The notes beneath the pieces were generated by a model. That model worked only from the letters and a program-made list of their open reading frames with translations, did not search any database and was not told the origin of the DNA. A stretch of 64,000 nucleotides of DNA from Stigmatella ashevillena (GTDB lineage Bacteria > Myxococcota > Myxococcia > Myxococcales > Myxococcaceae). How positions within the stretch are numbered: position 1 is the first letter of the stretch; each line of letters starts with the position of its first letter. Shown here piece after piece: positions 22,614 through 32,231 of the stretch. The DNA lies in NCBI RefSeq assembly GCF_028368975.1, contig NZ_JAQNDM010000002.1, positions 2,056,007-2,120,006 on the forward strand, in the 5' to 3' direction. The translations under genes were made by a program, and so were the position numbers.

Positions 22614-22631
22614 GTTTCACATCGCTGTCAC
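22614..22631 (+). promoter_or_regulatory. Pho-box-like direct repeat upstream of phoB
   Basis: Two 7-mers, GTTTCAC (22614-22620) and CTGTCAC (22625-22631), are separated by four bases, the 11-bp period of PhoB half-sites (E. coli CTGTCAT). An AT-rich stretch follows. It would give PhoB autoregulation of the phoB-phoR genes. Confidence 0.55.
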
Positions 22632-22703: not shown

Positions 22704-23384
22704 ATGGCGCGAATCCTGATCATCGAAGACGAGCAGGACCTCGCCGGACTCATTGAGTACAACCTGCGGGCCGCGGGGTTCAACCCCGAGGCGGCGAACA
22801 CCGGCGCGGGAGGACTGGCCAAGGCCCGGGCCCGGGTGCCGGACCTCGTGCTGCTGGACTTGATGCTTCCGGACATCTCGGGCAACGAGGTGCTCCGGAT
22901 GTTGAAGAACGACCCCGGGCTGCGCGGGGCGCCGGTGGTCATCGTCAGCGCCAAGGGCCAGGAGGCCGACCGCATCCAAGGCCTCGAGATGGGGGCGGAC
23001 GACTATGTGGTGAAGCCCTTCTCCGTCCGCGAGCTGATGCTCCGGGTCAAGGCGGTGCTGCGCCGGGCGGATGCGGATGAAGGGCCCGCCACCCAGCTCA
23101 CCGCGGGGGAGATCCAGCTCGACACCTCGCGGCACCAGGTGCGCGTCAAGGGCGAAGAAGTCGTGCTCACCGCCCTCGAGTTCCGCCTGCTGCACACCCT
23201 GCTGGAGCGGGGAGGCCGGGTGCAGACGCGCGAGGTCCTCCTCTCGGATGTGTGGGGCATCCAGGCGGAGATTCATACCCGCACCGTGGACACCCACATC
23301 AAGCGCCTGCGCGAAAAGTTGGGGCCCGCCGGCGACATCATCGAGACGGTTCGAGGCGTGGGCTACAAGCTCAACCCCCCGTGA
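22704..23384 (+). CDS. phoB: PhoB-type phosphate response regulator (paired with phoR)
   Basis: A 226-residue OmpR/PhoB-family regulator. The receiver domain has Asp52 in LLDLMLPD and Lys in VVKPFSVREL. The winged-helix DNA-binding domain ends HTRTVDTHIKRLREKLG and ETVRGVGYKL. GGAG lies upstream of ATG 22704. It is followed after 10 bp by a PhoR-type kinase, so it is the cognate regulator of that sensor. A very similar paralogue lies at 25852-26538 next to pstS. The upstream gap carries a Pho-box-like repeat, suggesting positive autoregulation. Confidence 0.93.
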   Translation: MARILIIEDEQDLAGLIEYNLRAAGFNPEAANTGAGGLAKARARVPDLVLLDLMLPDISGNEVLRMLKNDPGLRGAPVVIVSAKGQEADRIQGLEMGADDYVVKPFSVRELMLRVKAVLRRADADEGPATQLTAGEIQLDTSRHQVRVKGEEVVLTALEFRLLHTLLERGGRVQTREVLLSDVWGIQAEIHTRTVDTHIKRLREKLGPAGDIIETVRGVGYKLNPP

Positions 23385-23394
23385 GGCGCCCGCC

Positions 23395-24756
23395 ATGACC
23401 CTGCGCGCCGTGCTCCTCTCCCTCTTGCTGCCCGCGGCCGTGGTCATGCTCCTGCTCATGGCCCTGGGGCAGCCTGGCACCGCCGTGGGTGCGGCTCTGG
23501 TCACGCTGGCCGGCTCCATCGCGGCCCACGTGGCCAACCGGGACCAGGTCCAACGCCAGATTCAAGCCCTTGCCAGCAAGACGCGGGAGCGCGCCGAAGG
23601 CCCCTCTCTGCGCCCTCCGCCCGATCCGGAGCGGATGGACGAGATGGCCAGCCTGGAGGGAGCGATCGACTCTCTCCACTCCCGGCTCACCACGCAGAAC
23701 GTCCAGCGGACCCAGGAGGCCCACACCCTCACCGCCGTGCTGGATGGCATGGTCGAGGGCATCTGGATCACCGACGCCGAGGGCACCGTCATCCGGCACA
23801 ACGACGCCCTGCGGGAGATGCTCCAGCCGGGCAGAGGGGCCGCCATCGTGGGCCAACGCCCGCTGGCCCTCATTCGTGACGAAGCCCTCAACGATGCGGT
23901 GGCACGCGCCTGCCGGGAGGGAACCTCCTCGCGCCTGGAGCTGACCTTGGAGGGGCTCTTTCCCCTCACGCTCTCCATCCGGGTGACGCCGCTTGGCAAG
24001 GACCTGCCGGGCAGCGCCGCCGTCTTCAATGACGTCACCGAGCTGCGCCGACTGGAAAACGTGCGCAAGGACTTCGTGGCCAACGTCTCCCACGAGTTGC
24101 GCACGCCCATCACCGCCATTCGAGGCTACGCGGAGACGCTTCAAAACGGGGCCCTGCAGGACCCGGCGGTGGCCCCCAAGATGGTGGAGATCATCCACCG
24201 TCAGTCGGAGCGCCTCTCCGAGCTCGTCGAAGATCTGCTGGAGCTGTCCCGGCTCGAGTCGCGCGAGATGAAGCTCCGGTTCGCCGACGTGTCCCTCGCT
24301 GTCGCCGCCTCCCGGGCGGCTGAAACGGTCAAACCCAAGGCGGAAGGCAAGAACATCCACCTGGAGCTGCACGTGCCCCCGGATCTCCAGGCCCGGGGGG
24401 ATGAGCGAGCAGTCGAGCAGGTGCTCCTCAACCTGCTCGACAACGCCGTCAAATACACCCCGGCCGGCGGGCGAGTGGACGTGCGGGGGAGCCGGGAGAA
24501 CGGGCGCTGCGTGGTGCGCGTGAAGGACACCGGCGTGGGCATCGAGCCCAAGCACTTGTCCCGTATCTTCGAGCGCTTCTACCGGGTGGACAAAGGTCGC
24601 AGCCGGGACATGGGCGGCACCGGCCTGGGCCTGTCCATCGTCAAGCACCTCCTGGGCGCCATGGACGGCGAGGTGAAGGTGGAAAGCCACCCTAATGTAG
24701 GCAGTGTTTTCGTAATTTTTCTTCCAGCAACCCCCTCGGAGGCCGCATCTGGGTAG
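23395..24756 (+). CDS. phoR: PhoR-type sensor histidine kinase
   Basis: A 453-residue kinase with two N-terminal hydrophobic segments (about 5-25 and 30-47) and almost no periplasmic loop, as in PhoR proteins that sense through the Pst/PhoU complex. A PAS domain follows (about 112-210, starting AVLDGMVEGIWITDAEGTVI). The dimerisation/phosphoacceptor block has His233 in FVANVSHELRTPITAIRGY. The ATPase domain shows NLLDNAVKYTPAGG, DTGVGIEPKHLSRIFERFY and GTGLGLSIVKHLL. It lies 10 bp after phoB. Start MTLRAVLL at 23395 gives the membrane anchor. The pst genes downstream support phosphate as the signal. Confidence 0.93.
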   Translation: MTLRAVLLSLLLPAAVVMLLLMALGQPGTAVGAALVTLAGSIAAHVANRDQVQRQIQALASKTRERAEGPSLRPPPDPERMDEMASLEGAIDSLHSRLTTQNVQRTQEAHTLTAVLDGMVEGIWITDAEGTVIRHNDALREMLQPGRGAAIVGQRPLALIRDEALNDAVARACREGTSSRLELTLEGLFPLTLSIRVTPLGKDLPGSAAVFNDVTELRRLENVRKDFVANVSHELRTPITAIRGYAETLQNGALQDPAVAPKMVEIIHRQSERLSELVEDLLELSRLESREMKLRFADVSLAVAASRAAETVKPKAEGKNIHLELHVPPDLQARGDERAVEQVLLNLLDNAVKYTPAGGRVDVRGSRENGRCVVRVKDTGVGIEPKHLSRIFERFYRVDKGRSRDMGGTGLGLSIVKHLLGAMDGEVKVESHPNVGSVFVIFLPATPSEAASG

Positions 24757-24768
24757 GATGGGGTAACC

Positions 24769-25770
24769 ATGCGGGTCGCGATCCTCGCGGACATTCACGG
24801 CAATCTCCCCGCCTGCGAGGCCGTCCTCGAGGACATCGACAGGATGGCGCCCGACTATGTCGTGGCCGCGGGAGACCTTGCGTTGCGAGGCGCTCACCCT
24901 CGCGAGACGGTGGAGCTGCTGCTCGATCGCTGCGACTCCGTCTTGATGGGCAACACCGACTGCTACCTGGCGGGCAACTACCTGGGCGGAGCCTACCGGG
25001 AGCGAGACCACTGGAAGACGGAGCTGCTGCGCTGGACCCGGGACCAACTGGGCGAAGCCCACCTCAAGACGTTGGGCGCCCTTCCCTTCTCCATGCGCTA
25101 CACGCCGCGCAAGGGGCAGGACCTCTTCGTCTGCCACGCCAACCCGAAGAACCTCGAGGAGTCGCTGGATCCCACCCTCGATGAGATCTCCATCCGCCGC
25201 TTCTTCATGCACCTGGACGCGGCAGCCTGCGCCTTTGGCCACCTGCACTTCCCCTACCGCCGCCGGGTAGGCCGCATGCTCATCGCGGACGTGGCCAGCG
25301 CGGGCATTCCCCGGGATGGAGACCTGCGCCCCGCCTATGGAATCTTCACCTACACCCCCAAGGGCTGGCGGGTGCAGATCCGCCGGGTGCGCTATCCCGT
25401 TCGCAAAGCCACCCAGGCCCTCACCGCGCGCCGGGTCCCCGGCGGTCCCATTCTCATCCACAAGCTGGTCGAGGCGCGCTACCGCCACCACCACGCCTTG
25501 CTAGAGGCAGCGCGCCGCCACTCAGGCCTTCCCCCGCCGGGGCCCGTGCTGCGTCCGCCCCCCGGGGCGCCGCCCCGCCGCCTTCCAGCCCCTGGGGCAC
25601 CTCCGGCAGGAGACCTGGAAACAGAGCTGCCCGTGCCGCGTCAAGACGAGCTGGATGCCGTGGCCCTGCGCATGGAAGCGCTGGACTCCGTCGAACTCCC
25701 TCCCGCGCAAGAAATCGCGGCGTCGGACGAGTCCTCCCTGTCCACCGGTACGACAGATCTCGACGGCTGA
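24769..25770 (+). CDS. Metallophosphoesterase (YfcE/MJ0936-like) in the pho locus
   Basis: A 333-residue calcineurin-like phosphoesterase. The metal ligands are in DIHGN, AAGDLAL, GNTD, CHAN and GHLH. The catalytic fold covers about 1-220. A Pro-rich tail with no known domain follows (from about 255). There is no signal peptide, so it acts in the cytoplasm. It begins 12 bp after phoR with a GGATGGGG ribosome binding site, so it is in the phoB-phoR transcription unit. Substrate unknown: family members hydrolyse phosphodiesters or nucleotides, and scavenging phosphate from internal pools is a reasonable guess. Confidence 0.85.
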   Translation: MRVAILADIHGNLPACEAVLEDIDRMAPDYVVAAGDLALRGAHPRETVELLLDRCDSVLMGNTDCYLAGNYLGGAYRERDHWKTELLRWTRDQLGEAHLKTLGALPFSMRYTPRKGQDLFVCHANPKNLEESLDPTLDEISIRRFFMHLDAAACAFGHLHFPYRRRVGRMLIADVASAGIPRDGDLRPAYGIFTYTPKGWRVQIRRVRYPVRKATQALTARRVPGGPILIHKLVEARYRHHHALLEAARRHSGLPPPGPVLRPPPGAPPRRLPAPGAPPAGDLETELPVPRQDELDAVALRMEALDSVELPPAQEIAASDESSLSTGTTDLDG

Positions 25771-25814: not shown

Positions 25815-25851
25815 GCAAGCGCCCGCGGAGACGTGGAGATTGGGCCATGCC

Positions 25852-26538
25852 ATGTCCCATGTCCTCATCGTCGACGACGAGCGTGACCTTGCCGAGCTCA
25901 TCGACTTCAACCTCCAGGCGGCCGGCTTCTCCACCCGCGTCGCCGCCACGGGCGAAGCCGCTCTCACCGCCGCCAGCGAGCAGACGCCTCAGCTCGTCCT
26001 GCTCGACTTGATGCTGCCCGACATCTCCGGGACGGAGGTGTGCCGGCAGCTGCGCTCGAACGCGCTCACCCGGGACGTCCTCATCGTCATGCTCACCGCC
26101 AAAGGAGAGGAAGCCGACCGTGTGCGCGGCTTCGAGGTGGGAGCGGATGACTACGTCACCAAGCCCTTCAGCGTCCGGGAGTTGGTCCTGCGCATCAAGG
26201 CCGTCCTGCGCCGGGGGACGCCCGCCAAGGAAGGCGCGGCACCGCTCACGCTGGGCCCGCTCACGCTCGATGTGGCCACCCACCGCTTCTACGTGGAGGG
26301 CAAGGAGGTGCTCCTCACCGCGCTCGAGTTCCGGCTCCTGGAGCACATGATGACCCGGCTGGGCCGCGTGCAGACGCGTGAGCAGCTCCTGGAAGAGGTC
26401 TGGGGCCTTTCCAGCAACCTCGAGACGCGCACCATCGACACGCACGTGATGCGGCTGCGCGACAAGTTGGGTCCGGCCCGGGCACACCTGGAGACCGTGC
26501 GGGGCGTTGGCTACCGCATCGTCGCCCCGCTGGCCTGA
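25852..26538 (+). CDS. phoB: Second PhoB-type response regulator, adjacent to pstS
   Basis: A 228-residue OmpR/PhoB-family regulator closely resembling the one at 22704. Asp52 is in LLDLMLPDISG, Lys in VTKPFSVREL, and the C-terminal DNA-binding motifs are TRTIDTHVMRLRDKLG and ETVRGVGYRI. It has no kinase gene directly beside it. In M. xanthus the orphan regulator PhoP4 sits by pstSCAB-phoU and controls it; this is probably its counterpart (inference from position). I chose ATG at 25852 (MSHVLIVDDE), with GGAG 13 bp upstream. A TTG at 25840 is too close to that site. Confidence 0.92.
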   Translation: MSHVLIVDDERDLAELIDFNLQAAGFSTRVAATGEAALTAASEQTPQLVLLDLMLPDISGTEVCRQLRSNALTRDVLIVMLTAKGEEADRVRGFEVGADDYVTKPFSVRELVLRIKAVLRRGTPAKEGAAPLTLGPLTLDVATHRFYVEGKEVLLTALEFRLLEHMMTRLGRVQTREQLLEEVWGLSSNLETRTIDTHVMRLRDKLGPARAHLETVRGVGYRIVAPLA

Positions 26539-26539
26539 G

Positions 26540-26573
26540 CCGTCACCCACCTGAGCCGTCACCCATTTGTCAC
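26540..26573 (+). promoter_or_regulatory. Pho-box-like repeat upstream of pstS
   Basis: The main pair is CCGTCAC (26556-26562) and TTGTCAC (26567-26573), four bases apart. A further CCGTCAC lies at 26540-26546, 16 bp upstream and so off the 11-bp register. The site starts directly after the stop of the second phoB, 80 bp before the pstS start, as expected for the strongest Pho promoter of the locus. Confidence 0.65.
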
Positions 26574-26653: not shown

Positions 26654-27475
26654 ATGAAGAAGTGCATCGCGTCACTCCTCGTTCTCTTCCACGTCGTCCT
26701 TCCCGCCGCGGCCCAGGCAGGCACGCTCTCCGTCAAGGGCTCGGACACCATGGTCATCCTCAGCCAGCGGTGGGCCGAGGAGTTCATGAAGAAGAACGCG
26801 GCCACCAAGGTCCAGGTGACGGGCGGCGGCTCGGGAACGGGCCTGGCCGCGCTCATCAACGGCACCACCGACATCGCCATGTCCAGCCGCCCCATCAAGG
26901 AGGCCGAGAGCGAGAAGATCCGCACCCAGTTCAAGGCGGCCGCGGAGCAGATCGCCGTCGCCAAGGATGGCGTCACCTTCTACGTGAACGAGAAGAACCC
27001 GCTGAACGCGCTGACGGTCGAGCAGCTCAAGGGCATCTACCTGGGCGACATCACCAACTGGAAGGAAGTGGGCGGCGCCGATGCCCCCATCGTCCTCTAC
27101 TCGCGCGAAAACTCCTCCGGCACCTACGTCTTCGTGAAGGACCACCTGCTCAACGGCGAGGACTACGCCGCCCAGGCCCAGACGCTGCCCGGCACCGCCG
27201 CGGTGGTGAACGCCATCACCCAGGAAAAGAACGGCATCGGTTACGGAGGCGCGGCCTATGCCAAGGGCATCAAGGAGCTGAAGATCAAGACCGCCGCCGG
27301 CGAGGTCGCCCCCTCCGCCGAGAACATCAAGAGCGGCAAGTACCCCCTCTCGCGGGACCTGTATTTCTACCTGCGTGGCAAGCCTACCGGTGAGGTCAAG
27401 ACCTTCATCGACTTCGCCCTGTCTTCCGAGGGCCAGCAGATCGTCAACAAGGTGGGCTATTTCCCGGTGAAGTAA
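26654..27475 (+). CDS. pstS: Phosphate ABC transporter substrate-binding protein PstS
   Basis: A 273-residue periplasmic phosphate-binding protein. A signal peptide (MKKCIASLLVLFHVVLPAAA, cleavage after AQA) precedes the mature GTLSVKGSDTMVILSQRWAEE. Phosphate-binding loops are GSDTM, GGGSGTGLAAL, SSRPI and the RENSSGTYVF segment. It has no lipobox, so it should be soluble. Its gene starts the pst operon behind a Pho-box-like site. The stop codon is followed at once by another Pho-box-like repeat ahead of pstC. Confidence 0.96.
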   Translation: MKKCIASLLVLFHVVLPAAAQAGTLSVKGSDTMVILSQRWAEEFMKKNAATKVQVTGGGSGTGLAALINGTTDIAMSSRPIKEAESEKIRTQFKAAAEQIAVAKDGVTFYVNEKNPLNALTVEQLKGIYLGDITNWKEVGGADAPIVLYSRENSSGTYVFVKDHLLNGEDYAAQAQTLPGTAAVVNAITQEKNGIGYGGAAYAKGIKELKIKTAAGEVAPSAENIKSGKYPLSRDLYFYLRGKPTGEVKTFIDFALSSEGQQIVNKVGYFPVK

Positions 27476-27478
27476 CCG

Positions 27479-27496
27479 CCGTCACACGATTGTCAC
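27479..27496 (+). promoter_or_regulatory. Pho-box-like repeat between pstS and pstC
   Basis: CCGTCAC (27479-27485) and TTGTCAC (27490-27496) are four bases apart, starting 4 bp after the pstS stop. This is the same pair of 7-mers as in the main site ahead of pstS. It could drive pstCAB-phoU separately from pstS, or be a duplicated control element. Confidence 0.6.
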
Positions 27497-27531
27497 GCGA
27501 GGCTCCGGCGCAGATGGATAGAGAGACCCTC

Positions 27532-28524
27532 ATGCAGCAGAGTCTCGCGGAAACCGTGGTGGTCCCGCAGCTGTCGCCCACGGCCCGGCGGCGGCAGCTC
27601 CGGGAGAAGGCCATCGCAGGCATCATCACGGTCATGGCCTTCACCGGCATCGCCGCCCTGGTGTTGATCATCGTCTTCGTCGCCAAGGAGGCGCTGGCGC
27701 TCTTCACGGACGCCCACGCCCGCGAGGAGGCGAGCTTCTCCAAGATGTTCCTGCCCCAGGTGGCCCGTCAGGGGCGGCCCCCCACGTTCACCTGGCAGCC
27801 GGTGTCTTCGATCCCGAAGGTGAGCATGATTCCGCTCTTCATCGGCACGCTGAAGACGACGCTCGTCTCCATGCTGGTGGCCGTCCCGCTGGGGGTGGCC
27901 GGCGCACTGTTCGCGGCCGAGTTCGCGCCCCGGCGGCTGCGCGAGTTTCTCAAGCCCATCATCGAGTTGCTGGCGGGCATCCCCTCGGTGGTGCTCGGCT
28001 TCTTCGCCCTAATGGTCCTGGCCACCTTCCTTCAGGACACCTTCGGTTTCACCTACCGGCTCAACGCGGTGGTGGCGGGCCTGGGGCTGGCGCTGGCCAT
28101 CGTGCCCGTCATCTTCACCGTGGCCGAGGATGCGCTCACGGCGGTGCCCCGCAGCTACCGCGAAGCCTCTCTGGCCCTGGGCGCCACCCCCTGGGAGACC
28201 GCCTGGAAGGTCGTCCTGCCCGCAGCGGCCCCCGGCATCCTCGCCGCCTGCGTGCTGGGCTTCGGCCGCGCCATCGGCGAGACGATGATCATCCTGATGG
28301 CCTCCGGCAACGCCGCCATCGTCTCCCCCAGCCTGGGGGACTCGGTCCGCTCGCTGTCCGCGACCATCGCGGCGGAGATGGGCGAAGTGGTGGTCGGCAG
28401 CCCCCACTACTCGTTGCTGTTCTTCATCGGCGTGGAGCTGTTCATCTTCACCTTCGTCCTGAACATGGTGGCGTCCTCCTGGACGAAGAAAGTCCTCAAG
28501 CGGCTCACGGGGGGCGCGTCGTGA
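27532..28524 (+). CDS. pstC: Phosphate ABC transporter permease PstC
   Basis: A 330-residue inner-membrane permease. Hydrophobic segments start with IITVMAFTGIAALVLIIVFVA. The binding-protein-dependent transport signature is [20 protein letters not shown], and LAGIPSVVLGFFAL is the PstC-typical block. Start choice: ATG 27532 (MQQSLAETVVV) lies downstream of the Pho-box-like repeat, preceded by GAGAGA. ATG 27514 is also in frame, and a TTG at 27490 falls inside the repeat itself. The stop overlaps the pstA GTG (GTGA). Confidence 0.94.
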   Translation: MQQSLAETVVVPQLSPTARRRQLREKAIAGIITVMAFTGIAALVLIIVFVAKEALALFTDAHAREEASFSKMFLPQVARQGRPPTFTWQPVSSIPKVSMIPLFIGTLKTTLVSMLVAVPLGVAGALFAAEFAPRRLREFLKPIIELLAGIPSVVLGFFALMVLATFLQDTFGFTYRLNAVVAGLGLALAIVPVIFTVAEDALTAVPRSYREASLALGATPWETAWKVVLPAAAPGILAACVLGFGRAIGETMIILMASGNAAIVSPSLGDSVRSLSATIAAEMGEVVVGSPHYSLLFFIGVELFIFTFVLNMVASSWTKKVLKRLTGGAS

Positions 28525-29432
28525 AGCACGCCACACGGCGGACGGTCGGCGCGGCCCTCACCTCCCTCACGGGCCTGGCCGCCCTGCTCATCGTGGCCAT
28601 GCTCGCCCTCATCCTCCTGGATGTGCTCCGCGGTGGCGCGGGCCATGTCACCTGGGAGTTCCTCTCCCAGCCTCCGTCCGATGGAATGATGCGCGGCGGC
28701 ATCTTCCCCGCGCTCTACGGCACGGCGGCCCTCACGTTGCTGATGACCCTCGCCGTGATGCCCGTGGGCGTGCTCACCGCGGTCTACCTGCACGAGTACG
28801 CTCCGCCCGACTCGCGGCTGGCGCGCTGGGTGCGGGTGGCGGTCGTCAACCTCGCGGGTGTGCCCTCCATCGTCTTTGGTCTGTTCGGCCTGGGCTTCTT
28901 CATCCACTTCGTCGGTGGAGGGATGGACCGTGCGATGGGCTATCAGACCATGCACTGGGCCCAGCCCAGCATCCTCTGGGCTTCGCTCACCCTGGCCGTG
29001 TTGACCCTGCCGGTGGTCATCGTCTCCACGGAGGAGGCCCTGCGCGCGGTGCCCTTGGACCACCGCACCGCCAGCCTGGCGCTGGGGGCCACCCAGTCCC
29101 AGACCCTCATGCGGGTGGTGCTTCCGGGCGCACTCCCGGGCATCCTCACGGGGGCGGTACTGGCGGTCTCCCGAGGCGCGGGCGAAGTCGCCCCCATTCT
29201 CTTCACCGGCGCGGCCTACTTCCTGCCGGATCTGCCCACGTCGTTGAACTCCCAGTTCATGCACCTGGGGTACCACACGTACGTGCTGGCCACGCAGTCG
29301 CCCGACATCGAGGCCACCCGTCCGCTGCTGTATGCCACGGTGCTGGTGCTGCTGATGCTCACCTTTGCCCTCAACCTTGTCGCGGTCATCATCCGCACCC
29401 GGACGCGCCGACGCTCCGCCAACGCCCACTGA
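28521..29432 (+). CDS. pstA: Phosphate ABC transporter permease PstA
   Basis: A 303-residue permease partner of PstC. GTG at 28521 overlaps the pstC stop. It starts [23 protein letters not shown] and has about six membrane segments. The PstA blocks are [35 protein letters not shown], and [20 protein letters not shown] (transport signature). A C-terminal segment [15 protein letters not shown] is followed by a basic tail. Order pstS-C-A-B-phoU is the classic one. Confidence 0.95.
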
Positions 29433-29442
29433 GACGCCGTTC

Positions 29443-30219
29443 ATGACCTTCCAGCCGAACAGCCCGCGCATCAAGATGGAGGCGCGGGCGCTGACCCTCC
29501 GCTACGGCTCCAAGGTGGCCATCCGCGAGGTGAGCCTCGCGATTCCCGAGCATCAGGTCACGGCGATGATCGGTCCCTCCGGGTGTGGCAAATCCACCTT
29601 CCTGCGCTCGCTCAACCGGATGAACGATCTCATCCCCCACACCCACCACACCGGCACCATTTCGCTGGATGGCATGAGCATCCACGACCGGAACGTGGAC
29701 GTGGTGGACCTGCGCCGCCGCGTGGGCATGGTGTTCCAGAAGTCAAACCCCTTCCCCAAGTCCATCTTCGAGAACGTTGCCTACGGCCTGCGGGTGGGCG
29801 GGCTGAAGAACAAGTCGGAACTGGCCACCCGGGTGGAGAAGTCGCTCCGGAGCGCGGCGCTCTGGGACGAGGTGAAGGACCGGCTCGACGACAGCGCCCT
29901 GGGGTTGTCGGGAGGCCAGCAGCAGCGCCTGTGCATCGCGCGCGCCCTGGCGGTGGAGCCCGAGGTGCTCTTGATGGACGAGCCCGCCAGCGCCCTGGAT
30001 CCGATCGCCACCGCGAAGATCGAAGAACTCATCTACGTGCTGAAGACCACCTACACCATCGCCATCGTCACCCACAACATGCAGCAGGCCGCCCGGGTCA
30101 GCGACCGGACCGCTTTCTTCTACATGGGGGAATTGGTGGAATGCGGTCCGACAGAGCAGATCTTCACGAACCCGCGTGAGAAGCGCACCGAGGACTACGT
30201 CACCGGGAAGTTCGGGTAG
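29443..30219 (+). CDS. pstB: Phosphate ABC transporter ATPase PstB
   Basis: A 258-residue ATPase driving phosphate uptake. Walker A is GPSGCGKST followed by [12 protein letters not shown], the signature is [12 protein letters not shown], and Walker B is [12 protein letters not shown]. The PstB-specific [18 protein letters not shown] is present, and the switch His lies in [11 protein letters not shown] at 29443 gives 258 residues, nearly identical to E. coli PstB. A longer in-frame start at 29365 is inside pstA and is rejected. phoU follows after 15 bp. Confidence 0.97.
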
Positions 30220-30234
30220 GAACGAGGGACACGA

Positions 30235-30924
30235 ATGCCGGCGACCCATACCGACAAGGCGTTTGAGCAGGATCTGCGGGACTTGCGTGAGCGGCTTCTG
30301 GCCATGGGGGCCAAGGTGGAGGCGCTCATCGCAGGCAGCGTGCGCGCGCTCACCGAGCGGGACTCCACGCTTGCCGAGAAAGTCATCCAGTCGGACAAGG
30401 ACGTGAACCGCCTGGAGGTGGAGATCGACGATCTCTGCCGCCGCATCCTGGCCCTGCGCCAGCCCGCCGCCAGTGATCTGCGGCTGATCACCACGGCCTT
30501 GAAGATCGTCACCGACCTGGAGCGCATTGGCGATCTGGCGGTGAACATCGCCGAGCGCGCCCATGATCTGAACCAGGTGCCGCCCCTGGCGCCCTATGTG
30601 GACACGCCGAAGCTGGCGGAGCTGGCCCAGCAGCAGGTGAAGAAGGCGCTGGATGCCTTCGTCTCCAATGATGTGGCGAAGGCCGAGGAAGTGCTGAAGG
30701 GCGATGACCTGCTGGATGCCCTCTTCCTGAAGATCTTCAACGAGCTGCTCGCCTACATGATGGAGGACTCGAAGAACATCCGGCGGGCCACGGCGTTGAT
30801 GTTCATCGCCAAGCACCTGGAGCGCATCGGAGACCACGCGCTGAACGTGGCCGAGATGGTCGTCTACATGGTGCGCGGCAAGGACATCCGCCACCCGCTG
30901 AGCCGGAACCTGACCATGGAGTAG
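30235..30924 (+). CDS. phoU: PhoU, negative regulator of phosphate signalling
   Basis: A 229-residue protein of two three-helix PhoU bundles. Each carries a metal-binding E/DxxxD-type motif seen in DVNRLEVEIDDLCRRILAL with DLERIGDLAVNIAERA, and AKHLERIGDHALNVAEMVVY. PhoU links the Pst transporter to PhoR and keeps the kinase off when phosphate is plentiful. It is the last gene of the pst run before a Pho-box-like repeat and a glycosyltransferase gene. Confidence 0.96.
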   Translation: MPATHTDKAFEQDLRDLRERLLAMGAKVEALIAGSVRALTERDSTLAEKVIQSDKDVNRLEVEIDDLCRRILALRQPAASDLRLITTALKIVTDLERIGDLAVNIAERAHDLNQVPPLAPYVDTPKLAELAQQQVKKALDAFVSNDVAKAEEVLKGDDLLDALFLKIFNELLAYMMEDSKNIRRATALMFIAKHLERIGDHALNVAEMVVYMVRGKDIRHPLSRNLTME

Positions 30925-30934
30925 AGGGCGCGGC

Positions 30935-30952
30935 GCGTCACACCGCCGTCAC
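30935..30952 (+). promoter_or_regulatory. Pho-box-like repeat upstream of the GT21 gene
   Basis: GCGTCAC (30935-30941) and CCGTCAC (30946-30952) are four bases apart, in the 95-bp gap between phoU and the glycosyltransferase at 31020. The motif repeats the pst/pho pattern, implying that the lipid gene is a separate Pho-regulon member. Confidence 0.55.
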
Positions 30953-31019
30953 CCCGTTTTTCCGCGGCCGCCGTCAGCAGGTCGCGGAGCTGTCGCCGGG
31001 CTCTTCTAGCGTTCCGCGC

Positions 31020-32231
31020 ATGCCCGTTGCCGCCCTGCTGCTGTTCTCCGCCGCCCTCGTGGGACTCCTCGCCCTGGCCGTCCAGCTCGTGCTTGTCCTG
31101 CGTCACCGGCCCAGCCCTGGCCATGCCCTCCCCCATTCCGAGACATCTCCTGGCATCTCCATCCTCAAGCCCCTGTGTGGAGTGGATGACGACCTGGAGG
31201 CCAACCTGGAGCAGTTCGCCACGTTGGACTACCCCCACTATGAAGTCATCCTGGGGGTCAAGGACATGCGGGACCCGGCCTATGCTCTGGCCCGGATGGC
31301 AGTCGCCCGCTGGCCTCACGTCATGAAGCTGGCGCTGCAAGAAGGCGAGCCCGGACTCAATCCCAAGGTGAACCAGCTCATCACCCTCTCGGCGGAGGCC
31401 CAGCACGGCCTGTGGGTGATCAGCGACTCGAACGTGCGTGTGGCGCCAGGCTACCTGCGGGAGATCGCCGAGGGGTTCGAAGATCCAGACGTGGGCTGTG
31501 TCACCCATCCCATCGCCGGCATTGGCGAGAGAACCGTGGGCTCGCTGATGGACAACCTGCACCTGGCCTCCAGCGCGGCAGCCGGGGTAATCGCCGCCAA
31601 GCGCCTGGCGGACAAGGACATCGTGGTGGGCAAGTCCATGGCCTTGCGGCGAGAGGACGTGGAAGCACTGGGAGGCTTCTTTTCCGTCAAGGACGTGCTC
31701 GCGGAGGACTTCGTCATTGGCCAGTGGATCACCCGCAAGCTGAGCAAGCGCGTGGTGGTCGCTCGGACACCGGTCTTCAACGTCTCCCTGAACAAGCGCG
31801 TGGGAGACTTCTTCAAGCGGTACGTGCGCTGGAGCGTCATCCACCACATGTCGGTCTCCACGCCCACGTACGTGGCCCAAGGCCTGCTCAACCCGGCGCC
31901 CCTGGCCCTGCTTGCCGCCCTGCTGGAGCCTTCTCCGGAGTCCTTCACCGCTGCGGGAGCAGTGGCCCTCTTGAAGGCACTGCTCGACCTCACGGTGTTC
32001 CGCGCCCTGCGCCCGGAGCCCGTTTCTTGGAGTGCGGTTCCGGTGGTCTTCCTCAAGGACGCGCTGCTCTTCGTGGCTTGGTGCAACGGCCTGTTCAGCC
32101 GGACGGTCCAGTGGCGCGGCACGCGGCTTCGGGTCCTTGCGGGCACGCGGCTGGCAGCGGCCATGGCCCCCCGTCACCCACCGCTCGCTCCGAGCGACGT
32201 GGGGGCGCGCGAGGAACTGCTCGCGGGCTGA
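31020..32231 (+). CDS. Ceramide-glucosyltransferase-like GT21 family enzyme
   Basis: A 403-residue membrane glycosyltransferase. An N-terminal hydrophobic segment (about 3-27) is followed by a GT-A domain with SILKPLCGVDDDLEANLEQF, LNPKVNQL, the metal/sugar motif ISDSNVRV, LAEDFVIGQWI and RYVRW, matching the D1/D2, D3 and (Q/R)xxRW motifs of ceramide glucosyltransferases. Hydrophobic C-terminal segments occur around LLNPAPLALLAALL and FLKDALLFVAWCNGLF. It would transfer a sugar from a nucleotide sugar to a lipid such as ceramide. HpnI-type hopanoid transferases share the same fold and are the main alternative. It lies behind phoU and a Pho-box-like repeat. Confidence 0.82.
   Translation: MPVAALLLFSAALVGLLALAVQLVLVLRHRPSPGHALPHSETSPGISILKPLCGVDDDLEANLEQFATLDYPHYEVILGVKDMRDPAYALARMAVARWPHVMKLALQEGEPGLNPKVNQLITLSAEAQHGLWVISDSNVRVAPGYLREIAEGFEDPDVGCVTHPIAGIGERTVGSLMDNLHLASSAAAGVIAAKRLADKDIVVGKSMALRREDVEALGGFFSVKDVLAEDFVIGQWITRKLSKRVVVARTPVFNVSLNKRVGDFFKRYVRWSVIHHMSVSTPTYVAQGLLNPAPLALLAALLEPSPESFTAAGAVALLKALLDLTVFRALRPEPVSWSAVPVVFLKDALLFVAWCNGLFSRTVQWRGTRLRVLAGTRLAAAMAPRHPPLAPSDVGAREELLAG

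Follow-up and report, generated by a model that had tools for sequence, protein, structure and literature searches.

A gene directly downstream of phoU in the pho/pst gene row described here encodes a glycosyltransferase of family GT21 (hereafter GT), and there is good comparative support for a link to the Pho regulon: both its linkage to pho genes and a Pho-box-like repeat at fixed spacing are conserved among relatives. We consider it likely that GT is a Pho-regulon lipid glycosyltransferase that would make a glycolipid in place of phospholipid under phosphate scarcity, a reading drawn from sequence comparison. Phosphate-limited membrane remodelling is well studied in Alphaproteobacteria, and because the gene and its box are also present in a strain of Myxococcus xanthus, this reading is open to experiment in a widely used laboratory organism.

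The stretch of DNA that was analysed, 64,000 nucleotides in length and referred to here as the window, corresponds to G000:C2:2056007-2120006 of a 10.95 Mb genome in two contigs. It contains a one-strand row composed of a PhoB-like regulator, a PhoR-like kinase, a phosphoesterase, another PhoB-like regulator, pstS, pstC, pstA, pstB and phoU, followed by GT (Table 1). The start of pstB is likely the ATG given in the table, which lies inside a longer listed ORF beginning at 29365. The TTG listed as the start of pstC falls within a Pho box (27481-27496), and therefore the true start is probably the ATG at 27514; the position of this box suggests a second Pho-controlled start within the pst operon. 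We also note that the phosphoesterase-like protein between phoR and phoB (24769-25770; PF12850) is 67-90% identical in the loci that cover that stretch.

Table 1. Features of the pho/pst-GT row, in positions of the window.
Feature	Position	Strand	Evidence or remark
Second PhoB-like regulator	22704..23384	+	named by eye from translation
PhoR/PnpS-like histidine kinase	23368..24756	+	NF046044 390 bits, just under cut-off 400
PhoB-like response regulator	25840..26538	+	NCBIfam TIGR02154 259 bits, just under cut-off 296.2
PstS-family binding protein	26654..27475	+	NCBIfam TIGR02136 248.6 bits, cut-off 206.6
pstC	27490..28524 (listed TTG start)	+	NCBIfam TIGR02138 242.5 bits, cut-off 196.45
pstA	28521..29432	+	NCBIfam TIGR00974 248 bits, cut-off 193.45
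pstB	29443..30219	+	NCBIfam TIGR00972 405.2 bits, cut-off 343.2
phoU	30235..30924	+	NCBIfam TIGR02135 232.9 bits, cut-off 130.25
PhoB-box-like direct repeat GTCAC-N6-GTCAC, 11-bp period, GTCACACCGCCGTCAC	30937..30952	+	pattern count; relatives' spacers
Degenerate second repeat GTCGC-N6-GTCGC	30981..30996	+	44 bp (4 x 11) behind first, 10 nt before TAGCGT
TAGCGT, candidate -10 element	31007..31012	+	sequence comparison of spacers
GT21 membrane glycosyltransferase gene (GT), 403 aa	31020..32231	+	ATG start; Pfam PF13506 2.7e-42

The family assignment of GT is clear, with a score of 144.6 bits against the Pfam Glyco_transf_21 profile (cut-off 21.7), and the three motifs on which the first-pass annotation had based it (SDSN, EDFVIGQWI and RYVRW) are all present in the translation. 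The protein also retains D, D, D and (Q/R)xxRW, which we take to be the catalytic set of GT21, as D85, D136, D230 and R267-R270-W271, residues that are invariant or nearly so in 23 aligned sequences. Its AlphaFold2 model (mean pLDDT 89.9) has a predicted GT2-type fold resembling those of membrane GT2-type enzymes; among the fold matches listed, which include no ceramide glucosyltransferase structure, the best is hyaluronan synthase (VIA Z 23.8, rmsd 3.6 over 348 residues), and the archaeal PcManGT also aligns (VIA Z 22.5, rmsd 4.0 over 309). The helices modelled at the N terminus (3-29) and towards the C terminus (281-359) would fit a membrane enzyme. By sequence, ceramide glucosyltransferase (26qf and others) is the sole PDB match under E 0.01 (E 1.4e-27, 99.8 bits, over 255 residues), and it is matched at 1.2e-72 by a profile built from 23 relatives.

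A match to GT with an E value of 0.001 or lower is found in 67 of 76 family genomes and, by our own reading of the match list, an orthologue of at least 300 bits in 58 of the 76, plus a 280-bit fragment in G039. Whether the linkage to phoU is kept in other myxobacterial genomes, a check proposed by the first-pass annotation, can be answered in the affirmative: phoU lies less than 400 bp before GT in 52 fetched loci, several of which represent the window's own locus or a genome that was retrieved twice, and which yield 41 distinct phoU-GT spacers. The linkage is seen in loci of the Stigmatella/Hyalangium type and of Myxococcus, Corallococcus, Pyxidicoccus, Citreicoccus and Archangium, and the arrangement in M. 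xanthus AM003 (L054) is the same as in the window. Farther away, one locus (L170) has the full phoU-GT order, phoU stands 0.65-3.6 kb upstream of GT in Anaeromyxobacter-type loci (L061-L063), and in some distant genera GT is found beside phoB, phoR or their adjoining phosphoesterase (L059, L171, L174, L175, L179 and L181). No pho gene was found beside GT in the fetched stretch of ten loci (L060, L065, L168, L169, L172, L173, L177, L178, L180 and L182), which belong to more distant relatives and several of which are on short contigs. A second GT21 copy, 54% identical to GT and far from pho genes, is present in one family genome (G037, 12.7 Mb; L128 7428-8702, minus strand).

The 95-bp gap between phoU and GT and the repeat of the pho/pst type within it, both described in the first-pass annotation, were found as described, and thus a PhoB-type direct repeat, the mark of a Pho-regulon site, lies upstream of GT. 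The pattern KTCACN6GTCAC occurs at four sites in the window against 0.18 expected, a number reached in none of 100 shuffles, and all four repeats adjoin pho/pst genes or GT: at 22616 (22616-22631, upstream of the 22704 regulator), at 26558 (26558-26573, between phoB and pstS and upstream of the latter), at 27481 (between pstS and pstC) and at 30937 (between phoU and GT). Because the pattern was derived from the phoU-GT spacers ahead of counting, the site at 30937 is not an independent hit, whereas the other three are. The exact repeat is present in 36 of the 41 distinct spacers and a relaxed form in two more (L025 and L042), and even the relaxed form is absent from three (L011, L056 and L058); the sequence TAGSST is found in 37 of the 41 and missing from four. 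Where a repeat, exact or relaxed, and TAGSST occur together, the distance between them is exactly 54 nt (36/36 spacers). When 38 distinct segments (15 once those at least 85% alike are dropped) are aligned without gaps, the best conserved stretches include CTTCAC-N5-tGTCAC, a downstream GA.TT and TCTAGcGTG, and most other positions vary.

This spacing bears on whether GT is anything more than a read-through neighbour of phoU that plays no role in phosphate metabolism, with the repeat belonging to phoU or to nothing. The short gap and shared strand would suit such an arrangement, as would the failure of a consensus scan to detect a sigma-70-like promoter and the ten distant loci in which a pho link was not seen in the fetched stretch. 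However, read-through does not account for a repeat and TAGSST held at a fixed distance while most other positions of the spacers vary, nor for GT standing beside phoB or phoR without phoU in some distant genera, and we regard it as unlikely. Control of GT from a Pho site of its own would fit these observations, although the promoter model is uncertain, since the box and the putative -10 element are 54 nt apart here and the box before the 22704 regulator is followed by TAG at 12 nt. The degenerate second repeat is treated as suggestive only, because it is not kept in Corallococcus-type rows. Within the genus the gap is 137 bp in the other genomes and 95 bp in the window and L010. The latter two are shorter by 39 bp downstream of TAGCGT, ahead of the ATG, and by 3 bp upstream of the repeat; should TAGCGT serve as the -10 element, the GT transcript would be nearly leaderless. 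In one same-genus genome (G063), the phoU-GT spacer is the same as that of Hyalangium versicolor (L014 and L039), which suggests that the window comes from a myxobacterium of the Stigmatella/Hyalangium type.

The best NCBIfam model for GT is the hopanoid glycosyltransferase HpnI, which makes bacteriohopanetetrol glucosamine, and the match is nearly full length, yet at 241.1 bits it does not reach the cut-off of 310. A phmmer search with GT likewise places HpnI-type rows (up to 163 bits) ahead of presumed Pgt-type rows (77-106 bits), where 'Pgt-type' is a presumed label for alphaproteobacterial genes. In a tree of 57 rows that contains no characterised Pgt, however, the myxobacterial enzymes, 23 in number, group on a branch of their own (100/95) and the 12 HpnI rows on another (100/99); seven presumed Pgt-type rows, with one unlabelled row among them, are also apart. 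Moreover, the only cyclase matched in the genome that carries the window, next to a squalene epoxidase, is of the 2,3-oxidosqualene type (1058.8 bits, cut-off 851), and hopene cyclase exceeded its cut-off in none of the 76 family genomes, a count that has no positive control since the same was true of all 14 control genomes. A hopanoid acceptor, which the first-pass annotation had set up as the alternative that would refute its proposal, is therefore disfavoured by score, tree and cyclase type, and an HpnI identity for GT seems very improbable.

Cyclases also have GT21-like neighbours of their own. In six loci of Corallococcus-type and other genomes (L120, L122, L123, L124, L125 and L130), a further GT21-like gene of about 28-30% identity stands no more than a few kb from a cyclase gene, typed in L120 as an oxidosqualene cyclase. 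The six paralogs group on their own branch (100/100) and are candidate sterol glycosyltransferases. HpnI was considered for the paralogs of about 28% identity and rejected: the two that were compared with HpnI reached 101 and 113 bits, and the genes lie near cyclases.

What GT glycosylates can be narrowed by comparison to two main candidates. Ceramide was the acceptor named in the first-pass annotation, in which a Pho-controlled ceramide glycosyltransferase would produce glycosphingolipids; its GT21 assignment holds, and the ceramide part is not established, as likeness to ceramide glucosyltransferase is also seen in other GT21 enzymes. Against the solved structure an alphaproteobacterial plasmid GT21 (presumed Pgt-type, and itself annotated as ceramide glucosyltransferase) scores 134.7 bits, GT 99.8 and an HpnI 84.9, so that we rejected this likeness as a guide to the acceptor even though the structure is the only PDB match of GT. 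The Caulobacter glycosphingolipid enzymes offered as a precedent came from GT-4 rather than GT21 candidates, according to the accessible text of the paper (PMC6445935).

Genome content speaks for ceramide to some extent. The genome encodes a serine palmitoyltransferase (SPT; best PDB matches SPTs, 7.9e-118, and 511 bits against NF047600, below its cut-off of 640), and its gene precedes those of a GNAT-like acyltransferase and an NAD-dependent epimerase; these are likely a ceramide operon, with the acyltransferase and reductase roles assigned from gene order, and the organism is probably able to make ceramide. An SPT of over 800 bits is found in 51 of the 76 family genomes, and 50 of these 51 also have GT. 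Conversely, nine of the 59 GT genomes lack an SPT above that score (G001, G003, G005, G016, G025, G043, G050, G054 and G060), but this argument against ceramide is weak, because in five of the nine an SPT-like domain is part of a long ORF and four are less than 88% complete; for the same reasons we discarded it as proof of a diacylglycerol acceptor. One of the nine (G001, 98% complete) has three oxoamine-synthase matches only, of 126-228 bits, which were left unclassified.

The long ORFs are of interest in themselves. In G054 a 2270-aa polyketide synthase (L183 7503-14315, minus strand), KS-AT-KR-DH by Pfam, has an SPT-like oxoamine synthase domain at its end. Of the 25 family genomes that have no strong SPT, at least 18 contain ORFs of more than 2000 aa that match SPT, the Pfam run covering the G054 one only. 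Such a protein may replace SPT. In the polyketide-synthase-derived sphingolipids described for Pseudomonas, the polyketide synthase and the oxoamine synthase are separate genes, as far as the accessible text indicates (PMC12134224).

Taken together, diacylglycerol is the acceptor that we place first, if at somewhat less than an even chance, and ceramide follows as a substantial possibility; perhaps both are used, by analogy with what has been reported for Pgt. The proposal of a Pho-controlled ceramide enzyme dedicated to glycosphingolipids is accordingly best viewed as plausible but rather doubtful. Diacylglycerol is slightly favoured because Pgt of Agrobacterium, a GT21 enzyme with a predicted Pho box, uses both diacylglycerol and ceramide and favours the former (accessible text of PMC3972451 and PMC8231724), and because a phosphoesterase gene follows GT in most GT genomes.

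This phosphoesterase is a calcineurin-like protein of 276-283 aa encoded directly after GT in many relatives' loci. By hand count, a GpdQ/Rv0805-like phosphoesterase adjoins GT in 41 of 59 GT genomes, including a copy in G005 that ends at the contig end. It is missing from the genome that carries the window (best match 27 bits), and an adjacent partner is likewise lacking in three same-genus genomes (G015, G030 and G038), in G014 and in seven genomes of genus g23 (G023, G035, G042, G055, G067, G068 and G074). G008 and G024 have a copy elsewhere in the genome, G016, with GT at a contig edge, has one on another contig, G025 has a fragment on another contig, and G009 and G010 gave weak matches only. 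In Archangium/Cystobacter-type loci (L055, L056, L058, L103-L105, L176 and L184) a box is found between GT and the phosphoesterase. The phosphoesterase model (pLDDT 77.2) is nearest to Lmo2642 (VIA Z 21.1, rmsd 5.4 over 261) and also resembles Rv0805 (Z 20.2, rmsd 3.1 over 216) and the glycerophosphodiesterase GpdQ (Z 20.0, rmsd 3.0 over 217), and the enzyme may free phosphate or an acceptor from lipid. A relationship to the LpxH-like phosphoesterase that adjoins Pgt-type genes on plasmids is not clear (BLASTP E 0.002, 32% over 81 aa), and a search of plasmids with the myxobacterial protein gave no match.

These observations are consistent with a scheme in which, when phosphate is scarce, PhoR-PhoB would activate a promoter of GT's own in the phoU-GT gap, and GT would attach the hexose of a nucleotide sugar to a lipid acceptor free of phosphorus, the resulting glycolipid standing in for phospholipid. 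In many relatives the calcineurin-like phosphoesterase would act on phospholipid or its glycerophosphodiester to free phosphate and, perhaps, the acceptor as well; the lineage of the window, without this partner, would have to rely on another source. Lineages in which the phosphoesterase is missing thus offer a natural experiment on the supply of acceptor lipid. We tentatively suggest that myxobacteria evolved a remodelling module of their own, in which a GT21 clade apart from HpnI, the presumed Pgt and the sterol-cluster paralogs became wired to phoU/phoB, with a GpdQ-like phosphoesterase as the counterpart of PlcP in most GT genomes that was dropped in the Stigmatella/Hyalangium-type lineage.

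Among characterised relatives, ceramide glucosyltransferase is a homologous GT21 to which the presumed Pgt-type enzyme is closer than GT, and HpnI is homologous over nearly its full length but belongs to a separate clade, and the cyclase of the genome is of the sterol type. A review of Pho control describes several PhoRP systems in M. xanthus and names no lipid gene in its accessible text (PMC4415409), and a literature search that covered few subscription papers returned, among the matches listed, no paper that treats phosphate-limited membrane remodelling, phosphate-dependent glycolipids or the GT gene of myxobacteria.

The arrangement of GT and phosphoesterase is reminiscent of the PlcP-Agt system of marine bacteria, in which a phosphoesterase gene adjoins a lipid glycosyltransferase gene and Pho boxes are present; in some of these bacteria plcP lies directly upstream of glycosyltransferase genes, one of which was confirmed for di-/triglycosyl-diacylglycerol (accessible text of PMC4796936). 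The parallel extends to the 41 GT genomes with an adjoining partner. However, Agt is a GT4 enzyme (PMC8231724, accessible text) and GT a GT21, and the myxobacterial phosphoesterase is GpdQ/Rv0805-like, lies downstream of GT and is absent from the genome of the window, where a search with the presumed PlcP (the LpxH-like phosphoesterase beside a Pgt-type gene) gave no match, a search that had no positive control. The processive Pgt of Agrobacterium tumefaciens and Mesorhizobium loti shares with GT the GT21 family, a predicted Pho box and a link to phosphate deprivation (PMC3972451 and PMC8231724, accessible text). The presumed Pgt-type relatives nevertheless form another clade, in a comparison without a characterised Pgt sequence, and the gene neighbourhoods differ: three plasmid Pgt-type genes, annotated as ceramide glucosyltransferase, stand behind an LpxH-like phosphoesterase gene annotated as UDP-2,3-diacylglucosamine diphosphatase, whereas GT stands behind phoU.
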